Positions 4,244 through 33,758 of a DNA stretch of 36,694 nt are shown one piece after another (positions within the stretch are counted from its first letter, which is position 1; every line of letters starts with the position of its first letter). A program made the translations under genes and the position numbers. This stretch comes from Chloroflexota bacterium (GTDB lineage: Bacteria; Chloroflexota; Anaerolineae; B4-G1; SLSP01), in NCBI GenBank assembly GCA_019873725.1, contig JAIOAS010000012.1, positions 1-36,694 of the forward strand. Direction: 5' to 3'. The notes below the pieces were generated by a model, which saw only the letters and a list, made by a program, of their open reading frames with translations, was not told the origin of the DNA and did not search any database.

Positions 4244-5257
4244 ATGAAGCATAACAAAAGCTCTCTTACGATTCGGGACGTTGCGGAAGCGTGTGGCGTC
4301 TCGATCTCGACTGTATCACGAGTCCTCAACAATAAGGACGACGTCTCGGCAGAGACCTACGAAAAAGTGCAGCGCGTGATTGCCGAAATGGGCTATACCT
4401 CAAGCCTGGCGGCGACCAGTATGCGCAGCCGGCGCACCAATGTCATCGGGGTTCTGGTCGTTGATCTGGGCGATCCCTTCAGTCTCGAATTGTTCAAAGG
4501 GATCGGCAAGGCCATCTACGGCACGGAGTACGATTTGATTATTTACAGCAGTGGTCGCATCGCCGCAACGGCGCAATCTGGCTGGGAGCGCTGGCACCTA
4601 TCGCGGTTGGATGGCGGTATCACGGATGGGATATTGGTCGTGACGCCTACAACGGCGGAGTTGACCACCAATTCCCCCCTGGTCGCCATCGATCCCCACG
4701 AGCATAACGTATTCCCGGCTGTCTTGTCGGCCAACCGCGAAGGGGCTATTGCGGCGATGGAGTACCTGATCAGCTTGGGGCACCGACGCATTGGCTTTAT
4801 CACCGGACGCCAGGGGTTGGTCAGTTCAAACCGCCGTCAACAGGGCTATGTCGAGGCACTCGAGCAGGCAGGATTGCCGGTCGACCCGGCGCTGATCCAG
4901 CCGGGCGATTATACCCGAGAGACCGGCTTCCGCTGCGCGCAAAACTTATTTGCCCTACCGGACCCCCCCACCGCGATTTTTGCCGCGAATGACCAATCCG
5001 CACTCGGCGTGATCGATGCGGCAAACGCAGCCGGCTTGCACATTCCTGACCATTTATCGGTGGTAGGATTCGACAATATCCCACAGGCGACAGGCTCAGT
5101 GCCCGCCTTGACCACAGTGGACCAATCCCTAAGCGAGATGGGATATATCGCCACAACGATGTTGATCAAGCTCATGCAAGGTAAATCACTCGACGCGCCG
5201 GTCTGTAAGATACCAACGCGGTTAGTGATCCGAGATTCCTGTCGAGCCGTCAAATAA
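4244..5257 (+). CDS. LacI-family transcriptional regulator (first)
   Basis: A 337-residue sugar-responsive regulator. The N-terminal helix-turn-helix is LTIRDVAEACGVSISTVSRVLNN (residues about 8-30), followed by the hinge helix ending SLAATSMRSRRT (about 53-65). The periplasmic-binding-protein-like ligand domain (NVIGVLVVDLGDPF to about 330) includes GHRRIGFITG and IFAANDQSALGV. The recognition-helix positions that set operator choice are Ile-Ser, unlike the Tyr-Gln of the neighbouring regulator, so the two should bind different sites. ATG 4244 lacks a strong ribosome site. It probably represses itself through the palindrome at 4176-4199. It converges with the second regulator gene. Its ligand and further targets cannot be read from the sequence. 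Confidence 0.9.
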   Translation: MKHNKSSLTIRDVAEACGVSISTVSRVLNNKDDVSAETYEKVQRVIAEMGYTSSLAATSMRSRRTNVIGVLVVDLGDPFSLELFKGIGKAIYGTEYDLIIYSSGRIAATAQSGWERWHLSRLDGGITDGILVVTPTTAELTTNSPLVAIDPHEHNVFPAVLSANREGAIAAMEYLISLGHRRIGFITGRQGLVSSNRRQQGYVEALEQAGLPVDPALIQPGDYTRETGFRCAQNLFALPDPPTAIFAANDQSALGVIDAANAAGLHIPDHLSVVGFDNIPQATGSVPALTTVDQSLSEMGYIATTMLIKLMQGKSLDAPVCKIPTRLVIRDSCRAVK

Positions 5258-6733: not shown

Positions 6734-8785
6734 ATGAAGGAGAGTAGAAAGAAACTCACGCGCAGAGAATTTCTGCGCAGCGCGGCCGTCTTCACGACCG
6801 CGATGGTAGCGACGGCCTGCACCACCCCCACGCCCCAGATCATCACCCAACGCGAAGAAGTCCCGATCGAGGTCACCCGCGTCGTTGAGGTAGCCGGTAC
6901 GCCGGTGGTCCAGGTTGAACAGGTAGTCGTAACCGCGACGGCAGAGCCCGCCCCCCCGAAAGAAAAAGCCCCCGACGTACTGGGCACTTTCCCCAGAAGC
7001 GAGACCTTCATCGCCAGAATTCTCACCGGGCGTGTCGGTTCACCGGACAACTTCAACTGGTGGGTGGGTTGGAAGTGGTCGGACCGCGGCCTGCAGAACG
7101 TGGCGACTGAAGCACTCTGGACGGTCGATTTTGCCACGGGCGAGATCATCAACGGTCTGGCAGATGGCGATGCAAAATACAACGCCGACTTCACGGAATG
7201 TACAATTCCGCTGCGCAAGGGCGTTGCCTGGTCAGATGGTGAACCCTTCTCGGCTGCCGATGTGGTTTACACGGTCGAAACCCTTATGGCATACACGGAG
7301 TTCGGCGCCCATAACTACTTCGTGAACAACGTCGCCTCCGTCACCGCCGTGGATGATTACACGGTCAAGTTTGTGCTGAACCAGCCCAACTCCCGCTTCC
7401 ACACCACTTTCCTCGACCGCTGGGGCTGCACTCGGATTATGCCCAAGCACATCTTCGAGAAAGAAGCCGATCCGGTTCAGTTCACCTTCAACCCGTTTGT
7501 GGGCGTTGGCCCTTACAAACTGCACAGCTTCGATCCGCAGGGCGCCTGGACCGCATGGGAACGGCGTGAGGACTGGGACAAGAGCCCCACCGGTATCTTG
7601 TACGGCATGCCGAAGCCCAAGTACGTCATCTACCAGTTCTTCGCCGATGAAGGCGCGCAGATCCTGGCCCAATTGACCCACCAGTTGGATGCGGCGGAAC
7701 TCTCGGCCGACGGCCTCAAGGCGCTGTTGGCGCAGTCCAAGACCTCCCGCGCTTACCAGCCCACCTTCCCCTTCGTGGTCAACAACGACCCGTGCATCAC
7801 CGGCATCAACTTCAACACCGCCCGCTCGCCGTTCGATCTGCTCGATGTGCGCTGGGCTCTGTTGCTGGCGATCGATATCGTCGAGTACACGAGCATCGCC
7901 GTCGACTCCTCGGGGACCTTAAGCCCGGTGCACGTCCCGCACCTGGGTCCATACCCCCGTGACTACATCCGCCCGATGCAGGACTGGTTGAAGTCCTTCA
8001 CCATCGACGTCGATGGCGAACCCTTCGCGCCGTATGATCCAGAGGCGCCGAAACGCGTCGCGGCCTATGCCAAGAGCCGCGGTTATGTCTTCCCCGATAC
8101 GCCGGAATTCATCGAACAGGCTTTCGGTCTGGGCTGGTACAAGTATGCCCCGGATGTCGCCGAAAAACTGTTGCTGAAGAATGGTTTCTCGCGGAATGCG
8201 GACGGCAAGTGGCTGCTGCCCGATGGCAAACCGTGGAAGATCTCGTTCCTGTGCGAGACGACGCTTTCCGGCATGGGCGCGCGCAATGCGGCGGCTGCCG
8301 TACAGCAATGGAAGAAGTTCGGTATTGATGCCGAAATCTTCCCCTCAGAGGCACGCGCTGATTTGATCGCCGTCGGTGACTTCGATGTCAGCGGTGACTG
8401 GCCGGCGCAAGAACCCTGGGGTGCAGGGCCTGACCTGTACCGCGTGCTCGACCGGTGGAACTCGGCCTACCTCCGCCCGGTTGGCGAACGCACCCAGGGC
8501 CATTCCTGCCGCTGGACGAGTGAAAAGATGGATAACATCATCAAGCAGCTACGCGAGACGGACCCCTTCGATACCGAAAAAGTCATTGCGATCGGCATCG
8601 AGGGCCTCAAGGAAGCCGTCACCAATATGCCCGGCATTCCGACCTACGGGTATATCGGCTTTGTCGGCTGGGACGAGTACTTCTGGACCAACTATCCCGG
8701 CAGCGAGAATCCCTATACTCAGCCGTATACGCACTGGCCCAACTTCAAGTACATGACCCCATTCCTCGAACCTACCGGCAGGTAG
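6734..8785 (+). CDS. ABC importer solute-binding lipoprotein, family 5
   Basis: A 683-residue extracytoplasmic binding protein that delivers ligand to the permeases encoded next. ATG 6734 follows GGAGG closely. The N-terminus has a twin-arginine pattern (TRREFLRSAA, residues 9-18), a hydrophobic stretch and a lipobox ending at Cys29 (VATAC), so it is probably exported folded by Tat and anchored by lipid. A Thr/Val/Pro-rich linker (about 30-75) precedes the family 5 (DppA/OppA) fold: TVDFATGEIINGLADGD, FTECTIPLRKGVAWSDGEPF and VYTVETLMAY are typical. At about 680 residues it is longer than peptide-binding members, as are family 5 proteins that bind cello- or xylo-oligosaccharides. The shared operator with a xylanase favours an oligosaccharide ligand; this is inference. 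Confidence 0.9.
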   Translation: MKESRKKLTRREFLRSAAVFTTAMVATACTTPTPQIITQREEVPIEVTRVVEVAGTPVVQVEQVVVTATAEPAPPKEKAPDVLGTFPRSETFIARILTGRVGSPDNFNWWVGWKWSDRGLQNVATEALWTVDFATGEIINGLADGDAKYNADFTECTIPLRKGVAWSDGEPFSAADVVYTVETLMAYTEFGAHNYFVNNVASVTAVDDYTVKFVLNQPNSRFHTTFLDRWGCTRIMPKHIFEKEADPVQFTFNPFVGVGPYKLHSFDPQGAWTAWERREDWDKSPTGILYGMPKPKYVIYQFFADEGAQILAQLTHQLDAAELSADGLKALLAQSKTSRAYQPTFPFVVNNDPCITGINFNTARSPFDLLDVRWALLLAIDIVEYTSIAVDSSGTLSPVHVPHLGPYPRDYIRPMQDWLKSFTIDVDGEPFAPYDPEAPKRVAAYAKSRGYVFPDTPEFIEQAFGLGWYKYAPDVAEKLLLKNGFSRNADGKWLLPDGKPWKISFLCETTLSGMGARNAAAAVQQWKKFGIDAEIFPSEARADLIAVGDFDVSGDWPAQEPWGAGPDLYRVLDRWNSAYLRPVGERTQGHSCRWTSEKMDNIIKQLRETDPFDTEKVIAIGIEGLKEAVTNMPGIPTYGYIGFVGWDEYFWTNYPGSENPYTQPYTHWPNFKYMTPFLEPTGR

Positions 8786-8806
8786 TTCAGGCAGTATGTA
8801 GTATAA

Positions 8807-8841
8807 TAATCCTGGGCGGGCGTCTCGCTCGCCCAGGATTA
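8807..8841 (+). terminator. Intercistronic hairpin after the binding-protein gene
   Basis: TAATCCTGGGCG (8807-8818) pairs perfectly with CGCCCAGGATTA (8830-8841), followed by CTTTTG. Such a hairpin between a binding protein and its permeases usually causes partial termination or protects the upstream message, giving excess binding protein. Confidence 0.6.
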
Positions 8842-8865
8842 CTTTTGATAAGTGAGGTGATTACC

Positions 8866-9873
8866 GTGACATTCGTGAAACGATATCTCATCCCTCGTCT
8901 GATTCAATACGTTCTCGTCATCTGGCTGGGCATCACTGTCGTTTTTCTCATTCCCAGAATCACCCCCAACGACCCGGTCATGAGAATGATCGATCAGATG
9001 CAAGCGCGCGGTTCAACCCTGGAACCAGGCACGATGGATGCCATTATCCGCGACCTGACCCAGATGTATGGGCTGGAAGGTTCCTGGCTCGATCAGTATT
9101 GGGCTTTTTGGGGCAGGCTGTTCCGGGGTGACCTGGGCGTTTCCTTCTTCCAATTCCCCACCCGCGTGAACAAGCTCATTTTCACCGCGATGCCCTGGAC
9201 GTTGGGGCTGCTGTTGACCACCACTGCCATCACATGGACATTGGGCAACATCATTGGTGGATTAGCGGGTTATTATTCGCGCAAGGGTTGGTCGCGGATC
9301 CTGGATGCCGTCGCTATGGTCGTCCGCCCGCTGCCCTATTACATCTTTGCGTTCATGCTGCTCCTGATCTTTGCTTATGTCGTGCGGTGGTTCCCCATTA
9401 CAGGAGGGGCGTCGTTGGGCGCTATTCCCACCTTCACCTGGGCCTTTATCAAAGATGTGCTCTGGCATTCAGCCTTGCCGGCTATTTCGCTGATAGTGCT
9501 TGGAGGCGCAGTCACCTTCCAAACCATGAAGCTACTTGTGCAGAACATCAATGCGGAAAACTTTGTCCAGTACGCCAAACTGGGCGGCGTCAAAGAAAAC
9601 CGCATCGTGGGCAAATACGTCATTCGCAATGCTTTACTGCCGCAAATTACCGGCCTGGCGCTCGGATTGGGGCAAATTTTCAGCGGGGCGCTGATTACGG
9701 AGATCGTGTATGGTTATCCCGGCCTGGGCATGTTGCTTTACAGAGCCATCGTCAACGGAGATTACAATTTAATTATGGGAATTACGATCTTTTCTATCTT
9801 CGGCATCACGACGGCAATCCTCATCGTAGATCTGACATATCCTCTATTTGACCCGCGGGTGAGATACACATAA
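8866..9873 (+). CDS. ABC importer permease, DppB/OppB type
   Basis: A 335-residue inner-membrane permease. GTG 8866 is chosen because GAGGTG lies at 8854-8859, six bases upstream; a TTG at 8845 is in frame but sits at the end of the preceding hairpin. It has a first membrane helix (residues about 13-32), a long extracytoplasmic loop and about five further helices, the DppB plan. The cytoplasmic EAA loop is YAKLGGVKENRIVGKYVIRN, which docks on the ATPases. It pairs with the next permease to form the channel. Substrate as for the binding protein. Confidence 0.92.
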   Translation: MTFVKRYLIPRLIQYVLVIWLGITVVFLIPRITPNDPVMRMIDQMQARGSTLEPGTMDAIIRDLTQMYGLEGSWLDQYWAFWGRLFRGDLGVSFFQFPTRVNKLIFTAMPWTLGLLLTTTAITWTLGNIIGGLAGYYSRKGWSRILDAVAMVVRPLPYYIFAFMLLLIFAYVVRWFPITGGASLGAIPTFTWAFIKDVLWHSALPAISLIVLGGAVTFQTMKLLVQNINAENFVQYAKLGGVKENRIVGKYVIRNALLPQITGLALGLGQIFSGALITEIVYGYPGLGMLLYRAIVNGDYNLIMGITIFSIFGITTAILIVDLTYPLFDPRVRYT

Positions 9874-9886
9874 GGAGGCCAGTCCC

Positions 9887-10741
9887 ATGCGAACCCTCAA
9901 AGACCTTTTCAGAGATTATCGCTTCTGCGTCAGCTTTGGCGTTCTGGTGATCATTGTGATCCTGGCCCTCCTGTCGAATTTTTCGCCTTATGACCCGACG
10001 CTGTGGAATGTCGTCCCGCGAGATACCAAGCCATCGGCTGAACACTGGCTGGGCACCGATTCAAACGGCCAGGATATCTTTTGGCAGGCGACCTTTGCGG
10101 TGCGCAATTCCCTGATCATCTCCCTGATTGCCTCACTGATTTCACGGACGATCGCCATCATCGTTGGTATGATTGCCGGCTATCGAGGCGGCATAACCGA
10201 CCGGGTGCTGATGTTCGTCGGCGACAGCCTGCTGGTGATCCCCATCTTTTTGATTATGGTTATGTTGGCAATGCTGGTGCGGCAATTTATGAACCTGGTA
10301 GTTTTGGGATTGATGTTATCGGCCTTCGGTTGGGCATGGGATGCCCGCCTGATTCGCTCGATTATCCTGAGCTTGCGCGAGCGAGACTTCACCAAGACGG
10401 CCATCCTTTCCGGTACGGGAACCATCAAACTGGTCCTGAACGAATACATGCCCTTTGCCACACCGTTGATCTTCTCGACGTTAATCAATAACATCGCCTG
10501 GGCAATTGGGTTGGAGATGACCCTGGCTATTCTGGGGTTGGTCGATCTCAACATCCCGACCCTCGGCACAATGTTGAACTGGGCACTCTTCTACCAATCC
10601 ATTCTGTTAGGACGCTGGTGGTGGATCTTGACGCCGGTGGTCTTGTCGCTTATGCTGTTTGTTGCGCTTTACTGGCTCTCCGTCAGTATCAGCGAATATC
10701 TGGATCCAAGAACGCGCATCCAGCGCGTCGGGGCGCAGTGA
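9887..10741 (+). CDS. ABC importer permease, DppC/OppC type
   Basis: A 284-residue permease with AAGGAGG just before ATG 9887. It has the DppC arrangement: a short cytoplasmic N-terminus, a first helix (about 12-32), then the conserved HWLGTDSNGQDIFWQ (residues about 47-61), and five more helices. The EAA-like loop is FTKTAILSGTGTIKLVLNEY. It lies 13 bases after the first permease and ends seven bases before the ATPase gene, consistent with one transcript. Confidence 0.92.
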   Translation: MRTLKDLFRDYRFCVSFGVLVIIVILALLSNFSPYDPTLWNVVPRDTKPSAEHWLGTDSNGQDIFWQATFAVRNSLIISLIASLISRTIAIIVGMIAGYRGGITDRVLMFVGDSLLVIPIFLIMVMLAMLVRQFMNLVVLGLMLSAFGWAWDARLIRSIILSLRERDFTKTAILSGTGTIKLVLNEYMPFATPLIFSTLINNIAWAIGLEMTLAILGLVDLNIPTLGTMLNWALFYQSILLGRWWWILTPVVLSLMLFVALYWLSVSISEYLDPRTRIQRVGAQ

Positions 10742-10748
10742 GGTGACG

Positions 10749-11753
10749 ATGAACGAGACAATACTCAGAACCGAAGGGTTAAAAACCTTCTACATACTCG
10801 ACGTCTTTGGAACCCAGAAGGTCGTGAAAGCCGTCAACAACATCAATCTTGATATCCGGACCAACGAAGTCTACGGCATCGCCGGAGAAAGCGGCTGTGG
10901 AAAGACGACGCTGCTAAAAGCCCTCGCCGCCGCAATCGAGCCACCGCTGCGTCTGGTCGACGGATACATCTTTTACTACGTCGATGGAAAGCCGGTCGAT
11001 GTCAGCACACTCAGTCCAGAAGCCAAACGAAAATTACGCCTGGACTACATCGCCTACGTCCCCCAAGGCTCAATGAGCGCACTCAATCCCGTGATCAAGC
11101 TGAAAGAGACCTATCGGGATTTCATCGAAAGCCACGTGAGCGGAAAGACCAAAGAAGAGACCGTCGCGATGGCAGAGCAGCATATCACAGAGTTGGGACT
11201 GCCGCCCAAGATCCTGGAGGCGTATCCACACCAGTTGTCCGGTGGGATGCGACAGCGGGTGACGATTGCCCTGGCAGCACTGATGAAGCCCGCCATCATC
11301 ATCGCGGATGAGCCGACCACCGCGCTCGATGTGGTTGTGCAAAGAGGCGTCGTGCAGCTCTTGATGGATATTCAGAAAAAGCTGAAAAACACGATTATCC
11401 TGGTGACACACGATATGGGCGTGCAGGCCAACATCGCCGATCGGGTCGGCATTATGTATGCCGGAAAAATCGTTGAGGAATCCACAACCGAGAAGATCTA
11501 CGGTGATCCCCAGCACCCCTATACCAAATTCTTGATCAATTCACTGCCGCAGTTTGGCGACAAGTCGCCCCGCCAAAGCGTGCCCGGAAGCCCACCCTCA
11601 CTCATCGATTTGCCGAGCGGATGCGCGTTCCATCCACGGTGTCCCCATGCGATGGGAATTTGTGCAGAACAAACACCAGAGCTCATCACACTGGATACCG
11701 ATCACAAAGTCGCCTGCTGGTTGGTTGGAGGACAGCATGGAAAAACTGCTTGA
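10749..11753 (+). CDS. ABC importer ATPase, DppD/OppD type
   Basis: A 334-residue ATPase. ATG 10749, with GAGGTG just upstream, is preferred over an in-frame start at 10659 that would run inside the permease gene. Walker A is GESGCGKTT (46-54), the signature is LSGGMRQRV, and Walker B is [13 protein letters not shown]. The C-terminal extension has the oligopeptide-type [18 protein letters not shown] segment with four cysteines, a site that holds an iron-sulfur cluster in some relatives. It overlaps the next ATPase gene by 17 bases, so the two are probably translationally coupled. Confidence 0.93.
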
Positions 11754-12717
11754 AGTCAAGAACCTGACCAAAGTGTTCACCATGGGGAGTATCCTCTCCA
11801 GAGTCAGATTGACAGCCGCCGAAGATGTGTCCTTTTACATCAAACCAGGCGAAATCTTCACCCTGGCAGGTGAAAGTGGTTGCGGCAAAACCACAACGGC
11901 CAAGATCATTCTGGGTTTCGAGGAACCAACTTCTGGCACGATCGTCCACAACGGCAAAGATCGCGCAGAAACCAAAGGCAAAAAAGTGTGGCAAGAAGAA
12001 GGCATCCAGGCCATCTTTCAAGACCCCTTTGGCACGTTCAATCCCTTGCGCGTTGTTGACCGGTATTTCTTCGAGACCGTTCAGGGCTTCAAATTGGCGG
12101 CCACCAAGCGCGAGGCCATCGAGCTGATCGACGAGACGCTGCGGTTGGTGGGACTCACCTACGAAGAATTTGCCGGAAAATACCCCAGCGAATTCTCCGG
12201 CGGGCAACTGCAACGGGTCTCCATTGCCAGAGCGTTGCTGACCAAGCCAAACCTGCTCATCGCCGACGAACCGGTTTCGATGGTCGATGCCTCGCTCCGC
12301 ATGTCCATCGTCAACCTGTTCAAGCGGCTCAAGGAGGAGACCAACCTGAGCGTGCTCTACATCACGCACGATCTGGCGACCGCCTACTACGTGAGCGAGC
12401 GCATCGCGATTATGTTCAGAGGCAATATCGTCGAAATAGGGCCGGTCGAGAAAGTCCTGATGGAGCCCAAACACCCTTACTCGCAACTGCTGCGTGAATC
12501 CATCCCTGAAGCGGATCCGACAAAGCGGTGGAGCAAGCGAATTGTCCTTGCAGAAACCGAAGAGGAGGAATACCTGAGAGTGGGATGCAAGTTCGCCGGA
12601 CGCTGCCCACATGTCATGGAGATCTGTAAAACCCAGCCTCCCAAGGATATCGACGTCGATGGGGTGCTCGTCAAATGCTTCTTGTATAACGGGACCCCGG
12701 CGACGCCGCACGAATAA
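11737..12717 (+). CDS. ABC importer ATPase, DppF/OppF type
   Basis: A 326-residue ATPase, partner of the preceding one. ATG 11737 has GGAGG six bases upstream; the earlier in-frame start at 11554 lies deep in the upstream gene. Walker A is [11 protein letters not shown], the signature FSGGQLQRVS, Walker B LLIADEPVSMVDASL. The C-terminal cysteine segment (VGCKFAGRCPHVMEIC, then VKCFLYN) is present. It is the last gene of the importer operon, followed by a strong terminator. Confidence 0.93.
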   Translation: MEKLLEVKNLTKVFTMGSILSRVRLTAAEDVSFYIKPGEIFTLAGESGCGKTTTAKIILGFEEPTSGTIVHNGKDRAETKGKKVWQEEGIQAIFQDPFGTFNPLRVVDRYFFETVQGFKLAATKREAIELIDETLRLVGLTYEEFAGKYPSEFSGGQLQRVSIARALLTKPNLLIADEPVSMVDASLRMSIVNLFKRLKEETNLSVLYITHDLATAYYVSERIAIMFRGNIVEIGPVEKVLMEPKHPYSQLLRESIPEADPTKRWSKRIVLAETEEEEYLRVGCKFAGRCPHVMEICKTQPPKDIDVDGVLVKCFLYNGTPATPHE

Positions 12718-12738
12718 CTGCCCGCCTACACCCTCACA

Positions 12739-12771
12739 AACTGCCTGAGATTTCCTTCTCAGGCAGTTTTT
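12739..12771 (+). terminator. Rho-independent terminator of the ABC importer operon
   Basis: AACTGCCTGAGA pairs with TCTCAGGCAGTT across a short TTTCCT loop, followed by TTTT. It lies 22 bases after the last ATPase stop, so the MFS-GH9 gene should have its own promoter. Confidence 0.88.
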
Positions 12772-12794
12772 GTATGGTAGAATAGACAAACCCG

Positions 12795-12838
12795 GTAGAT
12801 CGAAAAATGCTCCAAGCAAAATTAGATCTACGGAGACT
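12795..12838 (+). repeat. Two-hairpin repeat family, internally deleted copy C
   Basis: GTAGATC (12795-12801) pairs with GATCTAC (12825-12831). The left half reads GTAGATCGAAAAATGCTCC and the right end GGAGACT, the same outer blocks as copy B2 at 18101-18199 but without the two inner hairpins. It lies between the terminator and the ribosome site of the next gene, so starts upstream of it are not credible. Confidence 0.6.
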
Positions 12839-12862
12839 TTGGACTTGCGTAAGGATGAACTT

Positions 12863-15800
12863 GTGAGAAAAAACCGTTTATCAGTGTGGCACGCGATCAG
12901 GAGACTTCTACGGGACCTGGACCTCTTTGCCACAGACGGCGTGCCGCGCCGCCACCACAAAGGCATGAAAATGTTCTGGTGGGACGGTCTACTGGCAACG
13001 ATCTCCGCCGCCTTTGTGGACACCTACGTCTCCCTGTATGCACTGGCATTGGGCGCGACCAGCACCCAAATCGGGACGCTCGCCTCGGCGTCCAGTTTTC
13101 TCGGCGCGCTGACGCCGCTGCCCGGCGCGGCGCTGGTACAGAAACTCGGCCGGCGCAAACCCCTTATCGTGTGGATCTCGGCATTTCTCCGCTCGCTGAT
13201 TCTGCTAGCCGCGCTCGTCCCGCTGTTCTTCACCGGGTATACCGCCGTCTATATCGTCATCGTGTTGTTTGCCCTGCGCGCGGGATTGGGCAATCTGATC
13301 CACCCGGCGTGGGTGTCGATGACGGGAGAAGTCGTCCCACTCGAACATCGCGGGCGCTACTTCTCATCACGCAACATGGCCATGGCGCTCGCCTCGATGT
13401 TGATTGTGCCCCTGGCCGGGCAGTTGATCGACGGCATCGGTGGCATCCCCGGCTATCAAGTGAGCCTCGCCCTGGCCTTCGTGGTCGGCCTGGCCTCGTC
13501 GTATGCCTACTCGCGCATCCCAGAACAGCCACTTGCCACAGATTCACAGCAACAGCGCGCCTCGTTCTGGCAGGCCCTGCGCGGCAATCGCACCTTCTTG
13601 TACTTCACCATCATTATGATGTTCTGGAACTTCGGCGTGCAGGTCGCCGGAACGTACTTCACCGTCTACCAAAAAGATGTGCTGCAATCGACCACCCGCC
13701 TCATCGGCTTGCTGACCACTGTGACTTCGCTCACCAGCCTGATCGGCCAGCGGGTGTGGGGACGGCTGATCGACCAACGCGGCTCGCGCTGGGTGATGAC
13801 GCTGTGCGGCTTGATTATCCCCAATATGCCATTCGTGTGGATGTTCGTCACCAAGCCGTGGCACGTCGCCTTCATCTCTGTGCAAAGCGGATTTCTATGG
13901 GCCGGGTTCAACGTTGCCAGCTTCAACTTGCTGCTGGAACTGCCCGACCAGAAGCTGCGCACGCAGGCCTCGGCCAGCTACGCCACCCTCACCAACATCG
14001 CCAGCATTGTCGCGCCGCTTGTCGGTGGCCTCATCATCGACCATCTGGGCTACCGGTGGGATTTTGGCGTCTCCGCCATCCTCCGGCTGTCATCGGCGAT
14101 AGGATTCCTGATTCTACTCAAGCCGTTTGGGAAAAGTAAGAAGCAAGATGCAGGGGGCAAGAGGCAAGAATCGGCGAAAGAGAACCCAGTAGGGCCCGGC
14201 GTCAGGACTGATGACTACGAAAGTAAAGACTACGAGACTAAAGACTACAAGACTAAAGACTATAAGACTAAGGACGACAAAACTATGACAACTTTCTGGA
14301 CTTTGAACGAAAAACAGTACTACGAAGCGCCCGGCCTGGCGGCAACCGTCTTCCACGACTTTTATCCCGAAGGCAAACAGGGCGGACTCACCCTCATCCA
14401 GCATGGTGAGCGCGTGGCAGCCTGCGGAGACGTGCGCCTGGAACCCACACCCGGTCAATGGCGACCACTGCCCAAAGTGGGCGAGCGGCAGGCAGAAGGC
14501 GAGTGTATCAGCGTTCCGGCCCACTTCGAGGCAGCGAACATCCGCTACACGGTGCACATCTGGCCGGAAGGCGAGAGCTTGCGCGTCACCGTTGATTTGG
14601 CCGAAACCCTGCCGCCCGACTGGGAAGGCAAAGTCGGCTTCAACCTGGAACTGTACCCCGGTGCGCTTTTCGGCAAGACGTTTCACCTGGGAGAGACGGC
14701 GCGCGTCTTCCCGCAACAAGCCAACGGCCCGCTGCACCACATCGGTGACTGTCGGCGCTGCCCGGTTCCGCTGGCAAACGGCCCCACCCTCACCGTTGCG
14801 CCCGAAGACCCGCTGCGCCGCCTGGTCATCGAGTCACTGAGCGGCGAAATCCTCCTTTACGACGGGCGGGATACCGACGCTAACGGCTGGTTCGTCGCCC
14901 GCGAGGTCATCCGCGCCGGTGCGACGGAGAAGGCGCTGCAATGGCGCATCACGCCGCACAGCGTCCCGGAATGGCGGCGCGACCCCGTCATCTGCATTTC
15001 ACAGGTGGGCTATCATCCCGACCAGGTGAAGCAGGCCATCCTGGAACTCGACCCGCGTACCGCGGTGCTCGATACCGCCGTCCTCAAACGGCTGGACGCC
15101 AACGGCCTCACCACCACCTGGGCCGACCTGCCGACTCGCTGGGGTCGCTGGCTGGCCTACGAGTACGCGATCTTCGACTTCAGCGCCGTGCGCGAACCGG
15201 GCATGTACGTCGTCCAGTACGGCGAGCAGCGCACCCCACCCTTTGCCATCCACCCAGAGGTTTACCGGCACAACGTCTGGCAACCGACGCTGGAAACTTA
15301 CTTCCCGGTGCAGATGTGCCACGTCGAAGTGCGCGACGGATCGCGCGTCTGGCACGGCGCGTGTCACCTGGATGACGCGCTGCAAGCGCCCGCGCCGCAC
15401 GTCCACTTCGACGGCTACCGCCAGTACGAGTCCACCGACACGCCCTACGCGCCTGGCGAGCACATCCCGCACCTGGACGTGGGCGGCTGGCACGACGCCG
15501 GCGACTACGACCTGGCGGCAGGGTCGCAGGCGCGCACGACGCACTCATTAGCCCTCATCCGCGAATTGTTCGGCGTGGACACCGACCAGACCACGGTGAA
15601 CCAGGCCGAGCGGCTGGTGCTGCTGCACACGCCCGACGGCGTCCCCGACATCGTCGAACAGGTAGCGCACGGTGCGCTCAACCTGCTTTCCGGCTACCGC
15701 GCCACGGCGGGCACGGCACACCCGCACAGCTTCCACGGCATCATCGAGGCTACGCTGGCGCAGTACACCCACCTCGGTGACGCCTCCACGATGACGGATA

Positions 15801-16717
15801 ACCGCATCCACGACCCCGGCCTCGCGCCCGGTCAAATCCGCTGCGATGCGGAGGGTCACATCTACACAAGCCGCAACGACGACCGCTGGGCCTTCACCAA
15901 CCACGACAGCGCGCTCGAATACATGGTCGCGGCGGCGCTGGCGGCCTCCAGTCGCGTGCTGCGCGGCTACGAGGACGACCTGGCCGACGAATGTTTGCGC
16001 ACGGCAATCTACGTGTGGGATTACGAAAAAACGCACACGCCGGTCGAACAGCGCGCGGCCTACGTCCCGCGCGGCGTGGAGGCCCAGGAAATCGTCGCGG
16101 CGGTGGAACTGCTGCTCACGACCGGCGAGGAACGCTACCGCGCACGCTTGTTGGAGCTACAGCCACTCCTGGAAAAGATTGGTCGGTGGGTCGGCGGTGC
16201 CATCGCCCGCGCACTGCCCGCCATTAATGACACCGATTTCACAGCGGCGTTCCGGGCCATTGTGGAAGCCGGCCAGGCCGAACTCGCGGCGGAACTGGCG
16301 TCTAACCCCTTTGGCATCCACTGGCATCCGCACATCTGGGGCGAGGGCTGGAAGATACAACAATACGCCGTCGAGTTATATCAACTGTGGCTGGCTTTCC
16401 CCGATCTGATCGACCGGGAAATCATCCTGCGTGTGGTCAACTACGTCCTGGGCTGTCATCCGGCGTCGAACGTCTCGCTCACGTCGGGTGTGGGTGCGAA
16501 GTCGGTCACCACGGCCTACGGCGTCAATCGCGCCGAATGGTCGTACATCCCCGGCGGCATGGTCTCCGGCGTCGCCCTCATCCGCCCGGACTTCCCCGAG
16601 CTCAAGGACCCGTGGCCGCATCTCTGGCAGCAAACGGAGTATGTGATGCCCGGCGCAGCGAACTACATCTTCTGTGTGCTGGCGGCAGATCGGATGCTGA
16701 ATCATGACGATGAGTGA
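12863..16717 (+). CDS. MFS transporter fused to a GH9 glucanase
   Basis: One uninterrupted frame of 1284 residues. GTG 12863 with AAGGA at 12851-12855 is chosen because everything upstream is repeat and terminator. Residues about 35-450 form a 12-helix MFS transporter (DGLLATISAAFVDTYVS, KLGRRKPLIVWISAF, PLEHRGRYFSSRN). Residues about 451-475 are a low-complexity Lys/Asp/Thr linker. Residues about 477-1284 are a GH9 enzyme: N-terminal domain, Ig-like module (ICISQVGYHPDQVK), then the (alpha/alpha)6 barrel with GGWHDAGDYD (Asp878, Asp881; catalytic base and water ligand) and WQQTEYVMPGAANY (Glu1259, candidate acid). There is no signal peptide, so the enzyme is probably cytoplasmic, hydrolysing sugars the transporter brings in. 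It may instead be two genes: ATG 14285 could start the GH9 part alone. Confidence 0.82.
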   Translation: MRKNRLSVWHAIRRLLRDLDLFATDGVPRRHHKGMKMFWWDGLLATISAAFVDTYVSLYALALGATSTQIGTLASASSFLGALTPLPGAALVQKLGRRKPLIVWISAFLRSLILLAALVPLFFTGYTAVYIVIVLFALRAGLGNLIHPAWVSMTGEVVPLEHRGRYFSSRNMAMALASMLIVPLAGQLIDGIGGIPGYQVSLALAFVVGLASSYAYSRIPEQPLATDSQQQRASFWQALRGNRTFLYFTIIMMFWNFGVQVAGTYFTVYQKDVLQSTTRLIGLLTTVTSLTSLIGQRVWGRLIDQRGSRWVMTLCGLIIPNMPFVWMFVTKPWHVAFISVQSGFLWAGFNVASFNLLLELPDQKLRTQASASYATLTNIASIVAPLVGGLIIDHLGYRWDFGVSAILRLSSAIGFLILLKPFGKSKKQDAGGKRQESAKENPVGPGVRTDDYESKDYETKDYKTKDYKTKDDKTMTTFWTLNEKQYYEAPGLAATVFHDFYPEGKQGGLTLIQHGERVAACGDVRLEPTPGQWRPLPKVGERQAEGECISVPAHFEAANIRYTVHIWPEGESLRVTVDLAETLPPDWEGKVGFNLELYPGALFGKTFHLGETARVFPQQANGPLHHIGDCRRCPVPLANGPTLTVAPEDPLRRLVIESLSGEILLYDGRDTDANGWFVAREVIRAGATEKALQWRITPHSVPEWRRDPVICISQVGYHPDQVKQAILELDPRTAVLDTAVLKRLDANGLTTTWADLPTRWGRWLAYEYAIFDFSAVREPGMYVVQYGEQRTPPFAIHPEVYRHNVWQPTLETYFPVQMCHVEVRDGSRVWHGACHLDDALQAPAPHVHFDGYRQYESTDTPYAPGEHIPHLDVGGWHDAGDYDLAAGSQARTTHSLALIRELFGVDTDQTTVNQAERLVLLHTPDGVPDIVEQVAHGALNLLSGYRATAGTAHPHSFHGIIEATLAQYTHLGDASTMTDNRIHDPGLAPGQIRCDAEGHIYTSRNDDRWAFTNHDSALEYMVAAALAASSRVLRGYEDDLADECLRTAIYVWDYEKTHTPVEQRAAYVPRGVEAQEIVAAVELLLTTGEERYRARLLELQPLLEKIGRWVGGAIARALPAINDTDFTAAFRAIVEAGQAELAAELASNPFGIHWHPHIWGEGWKIQQYAVELYQLWLAFPDLIDREIILRVVNYVLGCHPASNVSLTSGVGAKSVTTAYGVNRAEWSYIPGGMVSGVALIRPDFPELKDPWPHLWQQTEYVMPGAANYIFCVLAADRMLNHDDE
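14213..14287 (+). repeat. Five 15-bp tandem repeats joining the MFS and GH9 coding parts
   Basis: Five units of the type GACTACAAGACTAAA (14213, 14228, 14243, 14258, 14273), read as (K)DYKT-like repeats. Fourteen bases of the third unit are the reverse complement of the non-coding tandem repeat at 29705-29761 (TTAGTCTTGTAGTC). Unit length is a multiple of three, so copy number can change without breaking the frame. The last unit ends in the ATG at 14285. Confidence 0.85.
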
Positions 16718-16749
16718 ATATAAACTGTGCATAGTTTAGGAGGAAGGAC

Positions 16750-16974
16750 ATGCAAACACTCAGTATGGCGCAACAGATTTACCAAACCAGCGTCAAGAGT
16801 TTACCTATTGTTGAACGCTTGAAATTGGTGCAATTGGTCTTAGCTGACTTGCTCAATACTCCAACGATAAAAGCCTTAGACGAAAGCGATGCGTGGACCA
16901 TAGAAGACTATGCGGATTTGACACGTGCCTCGTTGTCGTATGTTGCTGAGACTTTGGAGGAACCAACACTATGA
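16750..16974 (+). CDS. Putative antitoxin of the first MazF-type module
   Basis: A 74-residue acidic protein, with AGGAGG seven bases before ATG 16750. It has no clear DNA-binding motif; residues 18-40 (LPIVERLKLVQLVLADLL) form an amphipathic helix seen in several small antitoxins. It overlaps the following toxin gene by four bases (ATGA), the usual antitoxin-first arrangement. The role is inferred from this position and size. Confidence 0.6.
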   Translation: MQTLSMAQQIYQTSVKSLPIVERLKLVQLVLADLLNTPTIKALDESDAWTIEDYADLTRASLSYVAETLEEPTL

Positions 16975-17300
16975 ATACCTTCCAAGCCGGTGACATTGTT
17001 ATTGTGAATTTTCCCGGCGCACAAGGAATGAAACGTCGCCCAGCGATTGTGCTTTCCACATCCCTCTATCATCAGCATCGCCCTGACATCATCATCGGTG
17101 TTGCCACTTCACAAACACAAAACGCCACGGCACCTACAGATTACATCATCAAGAACTGGAAAGATGCAGGGTTACGTCAACCTTCAGCTTTCCGCACCTT
17201 CCTGGTTACGTTACCGGCTGAATCCGCACTCCGTATTGGGCGCTGCTCCCCGGAAGATTGGCAAGGCATTGTGACTTGTGTGAAAAAAGCGCTGCCCTAG
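16971..17300 (+). CDS. MazF/PemK-family toxin (first module)
   Basis: A 109-residue putative endoribonuclease. The opening FQAGDIVIVNFPGAQGMKRRPAIVLS is the MazF/PemK pattern: a beta barrel start, then the Arg-Pro-Ala-(I/V)-(V/I) strand. The later Ser/Thr stretch IIIGVATSQTQ fits the active-site strand (family knowledge). Length is normal. It starts inside the antitoxin stop and ends at 17300, one base from the end of the opposing toxin gene. Confidence 0.78.
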   Translation: MNTFQAGDIVIVNFPGAQGMKRRPAIVLSTSLYHQHRPDIIIGVATSQTQNATAPTDYIIKNWKDAGLRQPSAFRTFLVTLPAESALRIGRCSPEDWQGIVTCVKKALP

Positions 17301-24008: not shown

Positions 24009-24071
24009 CCGGGTTCGGATTGGTCCCCGGAGGGCAGGCACAAAGCCCCTGCACCGCAGTAGACAGCCGTA

Positions 24072-24213
24072 GGGCGATTTGCCAAATCGCCCAACAAATA
24101 GAACAGTCGTAGGGCGATTTGCCAAATCGCATCAACAAACAGAGCAGTCGTAGGGCGATTTGCCAAATCGCCCAACAAATAGAGCAGTCGTAGGGCGATT
24201 TGGCAAATCGCCC
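24072..24213. repeat. Four tandem GGGCGATTT hairpins, period 40-41
   Basis: Perfect or near-perfect palindromes GGGCGATTTgccAAATCGCCC at 24072-24092, 24112-24130 (right end changed to GCAT), 24153-24173 and 24193-24213, joined by AACAAATAGAGCAGTCGTA-like spacers. In the fourth copy the centre is GGC instead of GCC. They fill the gap between the convergent nitroreductase and acetyltransferase genes and may act as a bidirectional transcription stop. Confidence 0.9.
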
Positions 24214-24222
24214 AACAAAAGG

Positions 24223-24834
24223 TCAGCGTAGGGCTAACGGGCCAATCTGCGTGATGCTCGCAGCACCGGCGGCGGCCCCGAAAACAGCGCAGGCTAAGCC
24301 GAACGCCGCCTCCGCGTCCAGTGGCTCAAACGGATGGATCATCACGTGCATGGGCAACGGTGGCTGGTGCGGCCCAACCGACTGGATGTAGTGCACGCCT
24401 TCGAGCAGCCGCGCCCCCTGGCGGCGGTAAAAGGCGATGCGACGCTCGGCTAAAGCGCGTTCAGCCTCCGTGGATGCCAGGTCGGGGCGTTCTACTTCGA
24501 TGAGCATGGCGACCGTCCCGGCAGGCAGCCGGCGCACGATTTCTCCGTATATCGCCGTACCGACGCCGTGGTTACGCGCTTCCGGCGTCACGGCGAACAT
24601 CCATAGCCAGGCAAGCTTGTGCTGAGGAATCAACACGTAATGCGCCAGGCCCACAAAGACACCCCCGCGCTGTATCGCCAGCAGGTGATGGTTGGGCCAC
24701 CGCTCTTTAAGCAGCCGCACATAGAACGAAACGAGCATGCGCTCGGCAGGCGGGAAAGCCGTCTCATACAGGTCGAGCCAGGGGAGTAGCAAGTCATCGT
24801 CGAGATCGGTGATTTCGCTGATATGTAGCTTCAT
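24223..24834 (-). CDS. GNAT-family acetyltransferase
   Basis: A 203-residue acetyltransferase. The start is set at ATG 24834, which overlaps the methyltransferase stop (ATGA). MFAVTPEARNHGVGTAIYGEI carries the acetyl-CoA pyrophosphate loop (R-N-H-G-V-G). VAMLIEVERPD and FYRRQGARLLEGVHYIQ continue the fold. It is the third member of a tightly overlapping minus-strand trio. The substrate is unknown. Confidence 0.85.
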   Translation of the reverse strand: MKLHISEITDLDDDLLLPWLDLYETAFPPAERMLVSFYVRLLKERWPNHHLLAIQRGGVFVGLAHYVLIPQHKLAWLWMFAVTPEARNHGVGTAIYGEIVRRLPAGTVAMLIEVERPDLASTEAERALAERRIAFYRRQGARLLEGVHYIQSVGPHQPPLPMHVMIHPFEPLDAEAAFGLACAVFGAAAGAASITQIGPLALR

Positions 24835-29683: not shown

Positions 29684-29704
29684 AGATAAGGCTCCTTCAA
29701 AAAT

Positions 29705-29761
29705 AGTCGCATAGGCGTTAGTCTTGTAGTCACATAGTCGTTAGTCTTGTAGTCGCATAGG
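29705..29761. repeat. 23-bp tandem repeat, two and a half copies
   Basis: Units AGTCGCATAGGCGTTAGTC... begin at 29705, 29728 and 29751 with period 23. The TTAGTCTTGTAGTC core is the reverse complement of the repeat coding for the MFS-GH9 linker at 14243. Together with the terminator at 29900-29940 it occupies the 315-base gap; otherwise I see nothing in it. Confidence 0.75.
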
Positions 29762-29899
29762 CAGAACGCCATCTTCGTGCTGCGTGGCGTGCGTTAGCAC
29801 CGGCGTCTCCCCTCACAACATCATCATCCTTGGAAGAGTTCAGATAAGTGACGATTATACATTCTGTCCACAACCTTCGCAAGGCTCTCAAAGACAAAT

Positions 29900-29998: not shown

Positions 29999-32900
29999 CT
30001 ACGGTGCGTAGGCTCGCATCACCAGCGGCAGATAGAGCATACGAAGCGGCCGCTCGACGAATTGCAACACACCGATCCGAGATGTGTTCTGCCACGATTG
30101 ACCGGTGGGGTCGTTCCAGATCGCCACGCTGTCGCGGTCACCGTCGCCATCGGCATCGTCGTTGACCTGGAAGTCAAAGCCAATCAAGACGCCGGGCTGC
30201 GGCATCACCGCAGTCAGCGTGATCGCCGCCTCAACGATATACGACCCCTCCATCAACAGCGTCTGGTCTTCAGGAATGATGAACGTCTCACTTCTCAGCG
30301 TGCCCGTCAAAGCCGCCGGATTGAAGCTCTGATCGTTGTCGAAATTGACGCGGTACTGCCCGTCGTCCGATTCGTAACTGGTGGTCTTGGCGTTGTTTTG
30401 GTCCACGAAGACCTCAACGGAGTCCTCTTCCCACGGGTTGGCGCTGGCCTTGCTCAGAAGCGTGTCGGACACGATGGCATAGACGTAGAGATGGCCTTCA
30501 TCCCACATCGTCCTGACTTTCGCCGTTGCCCCACCGGTTCCCATAACCCAGACATCGGTGTTGATCTCGTTGGCATCGGCCCAGATCGCATCAGCGCGTC
30601 CATCGATCACCGGCGTTCCCTTGATGGCCTGCGTCAACTTGTATTCGCCGATCAGAATCAGCGTGCCGAAGTTGGCCGTGCTCGTGAGCTGGCTGTGGGT
30701 CAGATCGTTCCACGAGATCACGGAGTTGTCGCTGCCATCGGTAACGCGGACGTCGAAGCCCAGGCGTGCTCCAGGGGCGAGCGTCGCCGTCAGCGGGAGC
30801 CGCGCTTCCAGGACGTAACCATGCGTGTTGGTGATGATGACGTAGTCCATCTGGAACGTACCGCTGGGGAAGGCGTAGTAGCGGTCATCGCCCTCGTAAG
30901 TGGCAGTCTTGTGATTGTTCTGGTCGACAAAGACCTCGACCTTATCGCCGGCATCCACGGTGGGGTCCTCAACCTTCACGATCACGTAGAGGTTGTTCTC
31001 CGCATCCCAACGGGTCTGGAAGCTGGCCGTCATCGCGCCGGTAGAGCCAATGTCGATCCAGGGTAGCATCTCCCAGAGCACCTCCGTCTTTCCGTCCACA
31101 ACCGGTGTGGCCTGAGAGACAAGTTGCTCCTTGATGAGCGGTGGCAGTCGCGACGGATCAATGATGCCCCAGTAAGCCCACTTGGCCTGCAGGTCCTTGT
31201 CGAAGAGCAACGGCAGGTTGATGCGGTTGATCGGCCAGGTCGAGAGCCAGGTATGATCATCGGCCATCCCCCAGAACGTCACGGAGCCGATTTTGTCCGC
31301 GTGACGGCGGAAGACCTCGAAGATCTCCTTGTAGCGATAGCCCTGTTTGATGAGCACTTCGGGGGGAACAGTGGTGTAGGAATCAGTATCATTGGTGTAA
31401 ATGCTCATATCCAGTTCGGTGATATGCACTTCACCCAATTCGGCGAACATTTCAATGGTTTCCTCGATGGCCGCCGCCGAGGGGTTCTGGATATTGATGT
31501 GCATTTGCATCCCGATGCCATCGATCGGCACGCCCTGATCCTTTAAGCCTTTCACCACATTGTACATACACTGGCGCTTGGCCGGGTCTGTTTCACCGTA
31601 GTCGTTGAGGATCAACGTGGCGGTGGGTGCTTCGCGGTGCGCAATGGTGAACGCGGTCGAGATGTAATCGGAGCCGGTCAGCTCATACCAGCGACTGCGG
31701 CGCAGGCAGTCCGGTTGAGCCGGATCGATGACTTCGTTGACCACGTCCCAAACGTTGACCACGTCTTTGTAGCGATTGACGACTGCGACGATGTGGTCTT
31801 CCAGGCGATCGAGCACCAGTTGTTTGTTCTCGACGGTCGGTGTCAACCATTCGCCAGCGTCATTCTGGAACATCCAGTCAGCAGTTTGCTGATGCCAGAC
31901 CAGCGTATGACCATGGATCGCAACATTGTTTGCCCGCGCAAAGGCAGCCAGCGTATCCGCACCGCTCCAGTCGAAGGTGCCCTCAGTGGGCTGGATCGGA
32001 CCGGGTTTCATCGCGTTTTCGGCGGTGAGGCTGTTGAAGTGCTTGAGGAACAATTCCACATGTCGCTCACTGGCAAGCTGCGCCGGCTCGATCGCCGCTC
32101 CGACCAGGAAATCATCCTTATAAAAGTCGTAGACCGAGGGGAAGTCCTGAATTGGGGGAGGCGGCGCGGTAGTTGGTGGTTCGGTCATGATGATAGTGAC
32201 ATCATCGATGTAGAAGCTGGCGCTAGCATCAGAACACTCCGCATACAGGGTCAAGGCATCGGCTTGCGTCGTGTACTTGAACGAACCGGTCATGCATGAC
32301 CAGGCAGTAGAAGTGGTGTTGTTATCGCTGCCCACCCAGGGATACGTGCTCGAACCGCCAATGGTGTATTGCAAGGCAAAGTTCGTCCGGAACGGCCCTA
32401 ACCCTTCCGCCAGGCGAATACACCCGCTGATTTGATAGGTAGCGCCGACCTTCAACAAGTTCAGCACATCCAGGGCCGGCCCGTTCCACCCACCTGTTCG
32501 TCCCGTCACCCGGAGCGCATAATTGCCCGTATGCACTGGGTCGGTAACGACATCTACAGCGATGCCGGTTCCGCCACGCGCATACCAACCCTGCGGCGTA
32601 TTGTCCTCAAAACCGTAGGTCGCGATAGTGGGTGGTGTAGTCATCACAATGGCGACGTCGTCAATGAAAAAATCGGCGGTTGCGCTGGCGCTTTCAGCGT
32701 ACAAGGTCAGTGTTTCGGCTTCTGCAGTGTATTCGAAAGAGCCACTCACGCATGCCCAAGCGGTATCCGTGGTGTTGTTCTCAACCCCCAACCAATGCCA
32801 ACTTGTAGAACCGCCAACAGGCTTGTACTCCACCGCAAAGTTCGTCCGGGTTGACGCCGTACCTGCCGCCAAACGGATACAACCGCTAATACGATAGGTA

Positions 32901-33226
32901 CCACCAACTATCAACAGGTCTAGCAGGTTCAGAGCCGGCCCATTCCAACCAGCATTACGCCCGGTCACGCCGAGACTACGCGCGCCCTCATGGGCTACCG
33001 TCGTCACCGAGGCCACTACCGCGGCGCCGCGACCGTACCACCCCTGTGTCGTCCCATCCTCGAAGCCATAGGTCGCAAGCACCACATCCGCCTGCGGCGC
33101 AAGGGGTTGCGCGACAGCGGGTTTGGCGGGAGCCACCGCCGGGGACAAAAGGCCAATCAGATAGGCCAGCACAACAAACAATGAGAGGCGTGTGCGCCAA
33201 TTCCGTTTCGCAGAAGTCTGTTGCAT
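29999..33226 (-). CDS. Secreted modular xylanase, CBM22-CBM22-GH10-CBM9-CBM9
   Basis: A 1075-residue extracellular endo-beta-1,4-xylanase. ATG 33226 has AAGGAG eight bases upstream. A signal peptide (about 1-40) is followed by two CBM22-like modules (about 50-198 and 201-349; both with YGFED, GRNAGWNGPAL-type and FYIDDVTI-type blocks). The GH10 barrel spans about 362-700: LTAENAMKPGPIQP, HGHTLVWHQQ, acid/base Glu498 (WDVVNEVID), nucleophile Glu604 (HITELDMSIY) and VTFWGMADDHTW. Two CBM9-like modules follow (about 705-880 and 885-1060; VDGKTEVLW, VEVFVDQNN twice). The C-terminus ends in YLPLVMRAYAP. CBM22 binds xylan and CBM9 chain ends (family knowledge). A LacI-type operator covers its promoter. 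Confidence 0.95.
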   Translation of the reverse strand: MQQTSAKRNWRTRLSLFVVLAYLIGLLSPAVAPAKPAVAQPLAPQADVVLATYGFEDGTTQGWYGRGAAVVASVTTVAHEGARSLGVTGRNAGWNGPALNLLDLLIVGGTYRISGCIRLAAGTASTRTNFAVEYKPVGGSTSWHWLGVENNTTDTAWACVSGSFEYTAEAETLTLYAESASATADFFIDDVAIVMTTPPTIATYGFEDNTPQGWYARGGTGIAVDVVTDPVHTGNYALRVTGRTGGWNGPALDVLNLLKVGATYQISGCIRLAEGLGPFRTNFALQYTIGGSSTYPWVGSDNNTTSTAWSCMTGSFKYTTQADALTLYAECSDASASFYIDDVTIIMTEPPTTAPPPPIQDFPSVYDFYKDDFLVGAAIEPAQLASERHVELFLKHFNSLTAENAMKPGPIQPTEGTFDWSGADTLAAFARANNVAIHGHTLVWHQQTADWMFQNDAGEWLTPTVENKQLVLDRLEDHIVAVVNRYKDVVNVWDVVNEVIDPAQPDCLRRSRWYELTGSDYISTAFTIAHREAPTATLILNDYGETDPAKRQCMYNVVKGLKDQGVPIDGIGMQMHINIQNPSAAAIEETIEMFAELGEVHITELDMSIYTNDTDSYTTVPPEVLIKQGYRYKEIFEVFRRHADKIGSVTFWGMADDHTWLSTWPINRINLPLLFDKDLQAKWAYWGIIDPSRLPPLIKEQLVSQATPVVDGKTEVLWEMLPWIDIGSTGAMTASFQTRWDAENNLYVIVKVEDPTVDAGDKVEVFVDQNNHKTATYEGDDRYYAFPSGTFQMDYVIITNTHGYVLEARLPLTATLAPGARLGFDVRVTDGSDNSVISWNDLTHSQLTSTANFGTLILIGEYKLTQAIKGTPVIDGRADAIWADANEINTDVWVMGTGGATAKVRTMWDEGHLYVYAIVSDTLLSKASANPWEEDSVEVFVDQNNAKTTSYESDDGQYRVNFDNDQSFNPAALTGTLRSETFIIPEDQTLLMEGSYIVEAAITLTAVMPQPGVLIGFDFQVNDDADGDGDRDSVAIWNDPTGQSWQNTSRIGVLQFVERPLRMLYLPLVMRAYAP

Positions 33227-33616: not shown

Positions 33617-33738
33617 GATCTACTGAGACTACCTGACTAACGACTATCAGACCTGGATCGCCAGATCCAGAGCAGAACGGGGATCTGACGAGAGCATTTT
33701 TGGATCTACCGAGACTACCTGACTAACGACTATCAGAC
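33617..33738 (-). repeat. Two-hairpin GATC repeat, copy D, within a 36-bp direct repeat
   Basis: Read on the minus strand it runs GTAGATCCAAAAATGCTC, a decayed first hairpin, CAGATCCCCGTTCTG, then CTGGATCtggcGATCCAG (33670-33653). It is bounded by two 36-base direct repeats (33617-33652 and 33703-33738; GATCTACTGAGACTACCTGA...) that differ at one base. No gene is seen between the xylanase promoter and mgsA. Confidence 0.72.
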
Positions 33739-33758
33739 TACTCTTAGAGGAGGGAACG

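Follow-up and report, generated by a model that had tools for sequence, protein, structure and literature searches.

Secondary transporters of 12 helices joined to a cytoplasmic soluble domain are exemplified by LplT-Aas (MFS-acyltransferase) and LacS (symporter-IIA). In these proteins the soluble domain is an acyltransferase or a regulator, whereas in the protein described here, encoded within a window of 36,694 nt (the whole stretch of DNA that was analysed), it is a glycoside hydrolase of family GH9. A search of the open-licence literature on fusions of MFS transporters with glycoside hydrolases returned nothing relevant, and no description of an MFS-GH9 protein was found there, in agreement with the initial annotation of the window, which knew of no characterised example.

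The closest solved structures to the GH9 half, by both sequence and fold, are GH9 endoglucanases with a CelD_N domain (3X17, AaCel9A 3EZ8, CelD 1CLC, BoGH9A 6DHT), which have no membrane domain and share 15–21% identity with it. The exo-acting GH9 glucosidases/glucosaminidases of Vibrionaceae (VC0615 6GDT, PBPRA0520 5DGR, VP2484 3H7L) also combine an (alpha/alpha)6 barrel with an N-terminal Ig/Fn3-type domain and are 14–16% identical to the GH9 half over the structural match, but they are only 566–586 residues long and have no transporter, whereas the window protein adds an MFS part and an N-terminal beta domain. These exo-acting enzymes use an Asp as the base and a C-terminal Glu as the acid (PMC6096475), and residue E785 of the GH9 part is placed like Glu546 of VC0615 (PMC6096475). 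The same three domains are found at full length, but with no MFS, in unfused GH9 proteins of Chloroflexota, Bacteroidota and Proteobacteria (for example L011, L014, L069 and L146; 41–69% identity).

The fusion frame and its distribution

Inspection of the sequence directly confirmed the frame of 1284 codons reported in the initial annotation, which runs without a stop over positions 12863-16717 of the plus strand, from the MFS through a linker to the GH9 part (Table 1). The predicted mass is 142.9 kDa for the whole fusion and 90.4 kDa for a GH9 product starting at Met475.

Table 1. Features of the MFS-GH9 locus and of the region 5' of it
Feature	Position	Strand	Remarks
LacI-family regulator	4244..5257	+	same neighbourhood; present in G001
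Opp-type ABC importer	6734..12717	+	SBP family 5, two permeases, two ATPases; 5' of the fusion
Hairpin and T run, ACTGCCTGAG-ATTTCCTT-CTCAGGCAGT-TTTT	12740..12771	+	found by eye; conserved in G001 and G003
Promoter-like site	12756..12783	+	extended -10 (TG before TAGAAT); sole plus-strand candidate within 12600-17000
Shine-Dalgarno-like AAGGA	12851..12855	+	7 nt 5' of the GTG start at 12863; GAGGA there in G001 and G003
MFS transporter domain	12863..14128	+	residues 1-422; 12 helices; Pfam, AlphaFold, Foldseek
Linker	14129..14284	+	residues 423-474; disordered; 15-nt GACTA units at 14213-14285
Shine-Dalgarno-like AAGGA	14270..14274	+	10 nt 5' of the internal ATG at 14285; identical in three species
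GH9 part	14285..16717	+	residues 475-1284; ancestral ATG at 14285, probable internal start
N-terminal beta domain of the GH9 part	14285..14980	+	about 230 residues, ahead of the Ig domain
CelD_N Ig-like domain	14981..15229	+	Pfam; residues 707-789
GH9 catalytic domain	15302..16714	+	reaches the protein end; D878/D881 (15494, 15503), putative acid E1259 (16637)

The same domain order, which the initial annotation had proposed to look for in related genomes, was found in two further species of the genus. Genome G001 (the locus is in record DYKY01000010.1, labelled Thermoflexus sp., Chloroflexota) carries a complete one-frame fusion with 89% identity, while in G003 a single frame passes through the junction with 81% identity up to the contig end. 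The fusion is known from these three genomes, all of them draft assemblies, the copy of G003 being cut 234 residues into GH9; in a fourth genome of the genus (G002), neither half has a close match. Two features might favour an error of assembly or sequencing that joined two genes, namely the fragmentation of the draft genome (415 contigs) and the tandem repeat that forms the linker. However, the assemblies of G001 and G003 share the junction and have different linker sequences, which led us to reject such an artefact, whose probability we regard as negligible. Since no stop lies between the domains, ribosomes that start at the MFS can only produce the fusion, a conclusion that is independent of any statistics. 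The absence of a stop in all three species predicts one polypeptide, as had been claimed, and we hold the MFS-GH9 fusion to be genuine at the sequence level with high confidence.

Outside the genus the GH9 was found unfused, with identities of 63% (G015), 69% (G022) and about 45% (G029 and G035); in G022 a fragment of the GH9 start sits behind a helicase gene. Among the GH9 loci taken from a species-level genome collection, the upstream extension did not exceed 134 residues, with the exception of G001, and the examined loci of this collection contained no further MFS-GH9 fusion save G001. Beyond the genus, 396 genomes of the class and 400 of the phylum yielded none. The initial annotation had named separate MFS and GH9 genes in close relatives as evidence against a fusion, and this is borne out in part: GH9 proteins of the same family (63–69% identical) do occur without an MFS, but both same-genus species that carry the gene have it fused. 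We regard the transporter-enzyme fusion as real and restricted to one lineage, with a predicted mechanism. Long frames near MFS matches in G015, G045 and G054 were considered as candidate fusions and proved to be separate ordinary genes or overlapping frames. An MFS protein of 781 aa with a long C-terminal extension resembling HEAT-type repeats (by eye) is encoded in G035, of the same order (L162:2093-4438).

The start region at the GTG codon is shared by the window, G001 and G003; just 5' of it the window contains an insertion that is absent from the other two. The hairpin with a T run, which is missing from the program's list of terminator-like sites, is likely to be the terminator of the upstream ABC operon. 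Two promoter-like sites were found against 1.2 expected by chance, so they are weak; TATGGTAGAATAGAC at the site near the fusion is kept in three species. Together, the hairpin and this promoter-like site suggest that the fusion is transcribed separately.

The linker and the probable internal start codon

The linker comprises 52, 57 and 52 codons over the three species (52 residues in the window), thus differing by multiples of three, and its protein identity among them is 25–52%. Nucleotide changes are about equally distributed over the codon positions (16/13/22, 25/29/31 and 21/23/20), whereas the MFS and GH9 parts show the third-position excess typical of coding sequence, and GC3 is 0.40–0.56 in the linker versus 0.79 in the MFS. 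The 12-mer GACTAAAGACTA was found in 46 copies in this genome, versus 0 for the reversed control, and in 5–29 copies in each other member of the genus; it is absent from two genomes of the same order. Of 18 GACTA places inspected in this genome, 14 were called intergenic and three were at the margin of an open frame; many of the 18 directly precede a start codon, and only the array at 14213-14285 is located well within a long frame. The GACTA repeats, the equal drift of the codon positions and the low GC3 indicate that the linker is probably intergenic repeat DNA that was captured, free of constraint on its residues. Two more GACTA-type stretches in the window (29704-29762 and 33712-33740) are also located just 5' of start codons.

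GACTA arrays elsewhere consist of units of 7 and 8 nt, about equally frequent, and 31 of 41 arrays have stops in every frame. Across 40 further arrays of this repeat, approximately 9% of single frames are open over 150 nt. The linkers contain no in-frame stops, versus 6–9 in another frame of the same linkers, and in neutral simulations started from each extant linker the frame remained open in about 11–33% of runs at a one-branch distance (d 0.2–0.3). The array and simulation values make three open linkers unlikely by drift, with a probability in the order of 1%, a level at which statistics by themselves leave it some room. A chance open frame across a non-coding gap was accordingly considered unlikely given the three species, only to about 1%.

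The ATG at 14285 aligns with the starts of standalone GH9 proteins of Chloroflexota. In each species the 60 nt around it rank among the 1.5–2% of the gene's windows with the least structure, although the AT-rich repeat alone could account for this low RNA structure. The first seven informative synonymous codons after the ATG are identical in the three species (shuffle P 0.015). The AAGGA, the low RNA structure and the conserved synonymous codons suggest that free GH9 is probably made too, so that the likely outcome is the fusion together with a free enzyme of about 90 kDa, rather than the fusion alone.

Since the linker lacks amino-acid conservation, tethering itself may be neutral. The main rival explanation is a tolerated read-through, in which GH9 would mostly be made free from 14285, and the fusion would be a by-product of a lost stop, with a tether that brings no benefit. 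The drift of the linker without amino-acid constraint and its non-coding GC3 would fit such a situation, as would the retained signals of the internal start (AAGGA, low structure, conserved codons) and the standalone state of GH9 in all other relatives found. On the other hand, the frame is open in three species despite the 27–37 single changes able to create stops in the linkers, and it has stayed open even though gain or loss of one 7- or 8-nt repeat unit would break it. Moreover, under read-through every MFS molecule would carry a GH9, which is costly if useless. We therefore regard read-through as a serious possibility, but one with clearly less than even chances.

The halves might also be made together and separated later, either through proteolytic cleavage of the disordered, Lys/Asp-rich linker or through a ribosomal frameshift within the repeat. 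The disorder of the linker (pLDDT below 50) and its richness in repeats would permit this, but neither a conserved slippery site nor a conserved cleavage motif was apparent on visual inspection of the three linkers, and we consider such a separation improbable.

The transporter and GH9 halves

The MFS half matched the Pfam family MFS_1 (1e-38; 133.6 bits versus a cut-off of 33.4). Its AlphaFold model is a 12-helix bundle composed of two six-helix bundles and ending near residue 419, followed by a disordered tail (residues 424-474; pLDDT below 50). The helix count was taken from this model, a simple hydropathy count having given too few. The model thus bears out the 12 membrane helices of the initial annotation, and its argument that a GH9 without a signal peptide should face the cytoplasm is well supported, as 12 helices are predicted to place GH9 on the cytoplasmic side. 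In the seven closest unfused MFS relatives, the protein extends 1–19 residues past the last aligned position and ends shortly behind the final helix.

According to Foldseek, the nearest folds are NorA and VMAT (drug/amine exporters) and the sugar symporter MelB, which matches about as well as the exporters; in a profile search the nearest solved MFS proteins were NorA, VMAT and EmrB (drug and amine exporters). This profile ranking is consistent with an exporter (sugar or drug efflux), in which case the fusion would be unrelated to uptake, performed instead by the adjacent ABC importer, whose operon with its LacI regulator is kept in G001. However, the equally good fold match of MelB argues against this, as does the genomic context of several unfused MFS relatives (about 45–52% identity), which adjoin genes encoding GH3, sulfatase, enolase-superfamily, FGGY kinase and xylose-isomerase-like proteins. 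These neighbourhoods point to carbohydrates, without proving import. An exporter is, in our opinion, unlikely; the MFS half would most likely transport carbohydrate through the membrane, and it may plausibly import cellodextrins.

Within the GH9 half, Pfam Glyco_hydro_9 covers residues 814-1217 (7.5e-17; 62.2 bits versus a cut-off of 27.7; 63.5 bits in the genome-wide profile search) and CelD_N residues 707-789 (3.7e-8, above the curated cut-off). The preceding beta domain matches no Pfam family, despite its conservation in several phyla within this GH9 group. The Asp pair of the DAGD motif, D878/D881 (D404/D407 of the GH9 part), is invariant in an alignment of 34 sequences, and E1259 (E785 of the GH9 part), located 25 residues from the end, is nearly invariant. 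The presence of DAGD and the profile score above the cut-off agree with the intact GH9 domain claimed in the initial annotation. Since the model of the GH9 part is poor over residues 732-785, assignment of the acid Glu rests on sequence only. Standalone GH9 proteins of Chloroflexota, among those examined, lack a signal peptide and begin close to the position of Met475, whereas most of the Bacteroidota and Proteobacteria copies have an N-terminal extension that reads (by eye) as a signal or lipoprotein signal peptide.

The GH9-part model consists of the beta domain, the Ig-like domain and an (alpha/alpha)6 barrel. Its best fold matches were the GH9 endoglucanases 3X17 (E 5.6e-23; target-normalised TM 0.69), AaCel9A and CelD, and the exo-acting Vibrionaceae enzymes matched as well. 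The criterion for the exo-acting subgroup is the presence of long alpha1-alpha2 and alpha9-alpha10 loops that close the pocket; in the present model the loop between helices 329-342 and 412-429 has 69 residues.

Proposed origin of the fusion and its surroundings

We propose that, in the ancestral state, a gene for a cytoplasmic GH9 followed an MFS gene, and the GH9 start codon was preceded by a GACTA-repeat leader. In-frame loss of the MFS stop codon would have caused the leader to be translated as a flexible tether of 52–57 residues, giving a membrane protein of about 143 kDa with its GH9 half hanging in the cytoplasm. There, GH9 would hydrolyse beta-linked oligosaccharides near the inner mouth of the transporter, or those supplied by the adjacent ABC importer, while the retained start at 14285 would also provide the free enzyme. 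The explanation that we favour, with moderate confidence, is a fusion of a carbohydrate transporter and a cytoplasmic GH9 fixed in one lineage of Chloroflexota, probably accompanied by free GH9. We infer the direction of transport, the substrate, the benefit of proximity and the ratio of the two products; in function, the protein would most likely be an importer-hydrolase unit acting on beta-linked oligosaccharides.

A stronger version, in which the transporter hands incoming oligosaccharides to its own GH9 (vectorial hydrolysis) via the captured repeat tether, and in which slippage switches the fusion, seems rather unlikely to us. With a tether composed of 7- and 8-nt units, the gain or loss of a single unit by slippage could uncouple the halves and so make the fusion switchable.

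Fusions of an enzyme with a transporter of its own cargo are rare and would allow direct tests of whether proximity aids flux. The present one looks young and has been retained in three species with differing tether sequences; the unfused relatives of both halves can serve as natural controls. It would also illustrate a route to gene fusion, in which a stop codon is lost ahead of an intergenic repeat array that is open in one frame.

Since an ABC importer adjoins the fusion, uptake may not depend on the MFS. In G001 the regulator and the binding protein recur in matching gene order. A search for LacI-type operators gave no more matches than expected by chance. Profile searches of the genome of the window revealed two matches to GH94 phosphorylases and no second GH9; in G015 the GH9 gene is located near GH94 and GH130. 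Directly 3' of the fusion (16751-17300) there is a possible small antitoxin gene with a PemK/MazF-type toxin gene, and in region 24060-24234 a 40-bp unit with the palindrome GGGCGATTTGCCAAATCGCCC is repeated in tandem about four times. A large GH10 xylanase with CBM4_9 and CBM9 modules is encoded on the minus strand (29999-33226), approximately 13 kb from the fusion.
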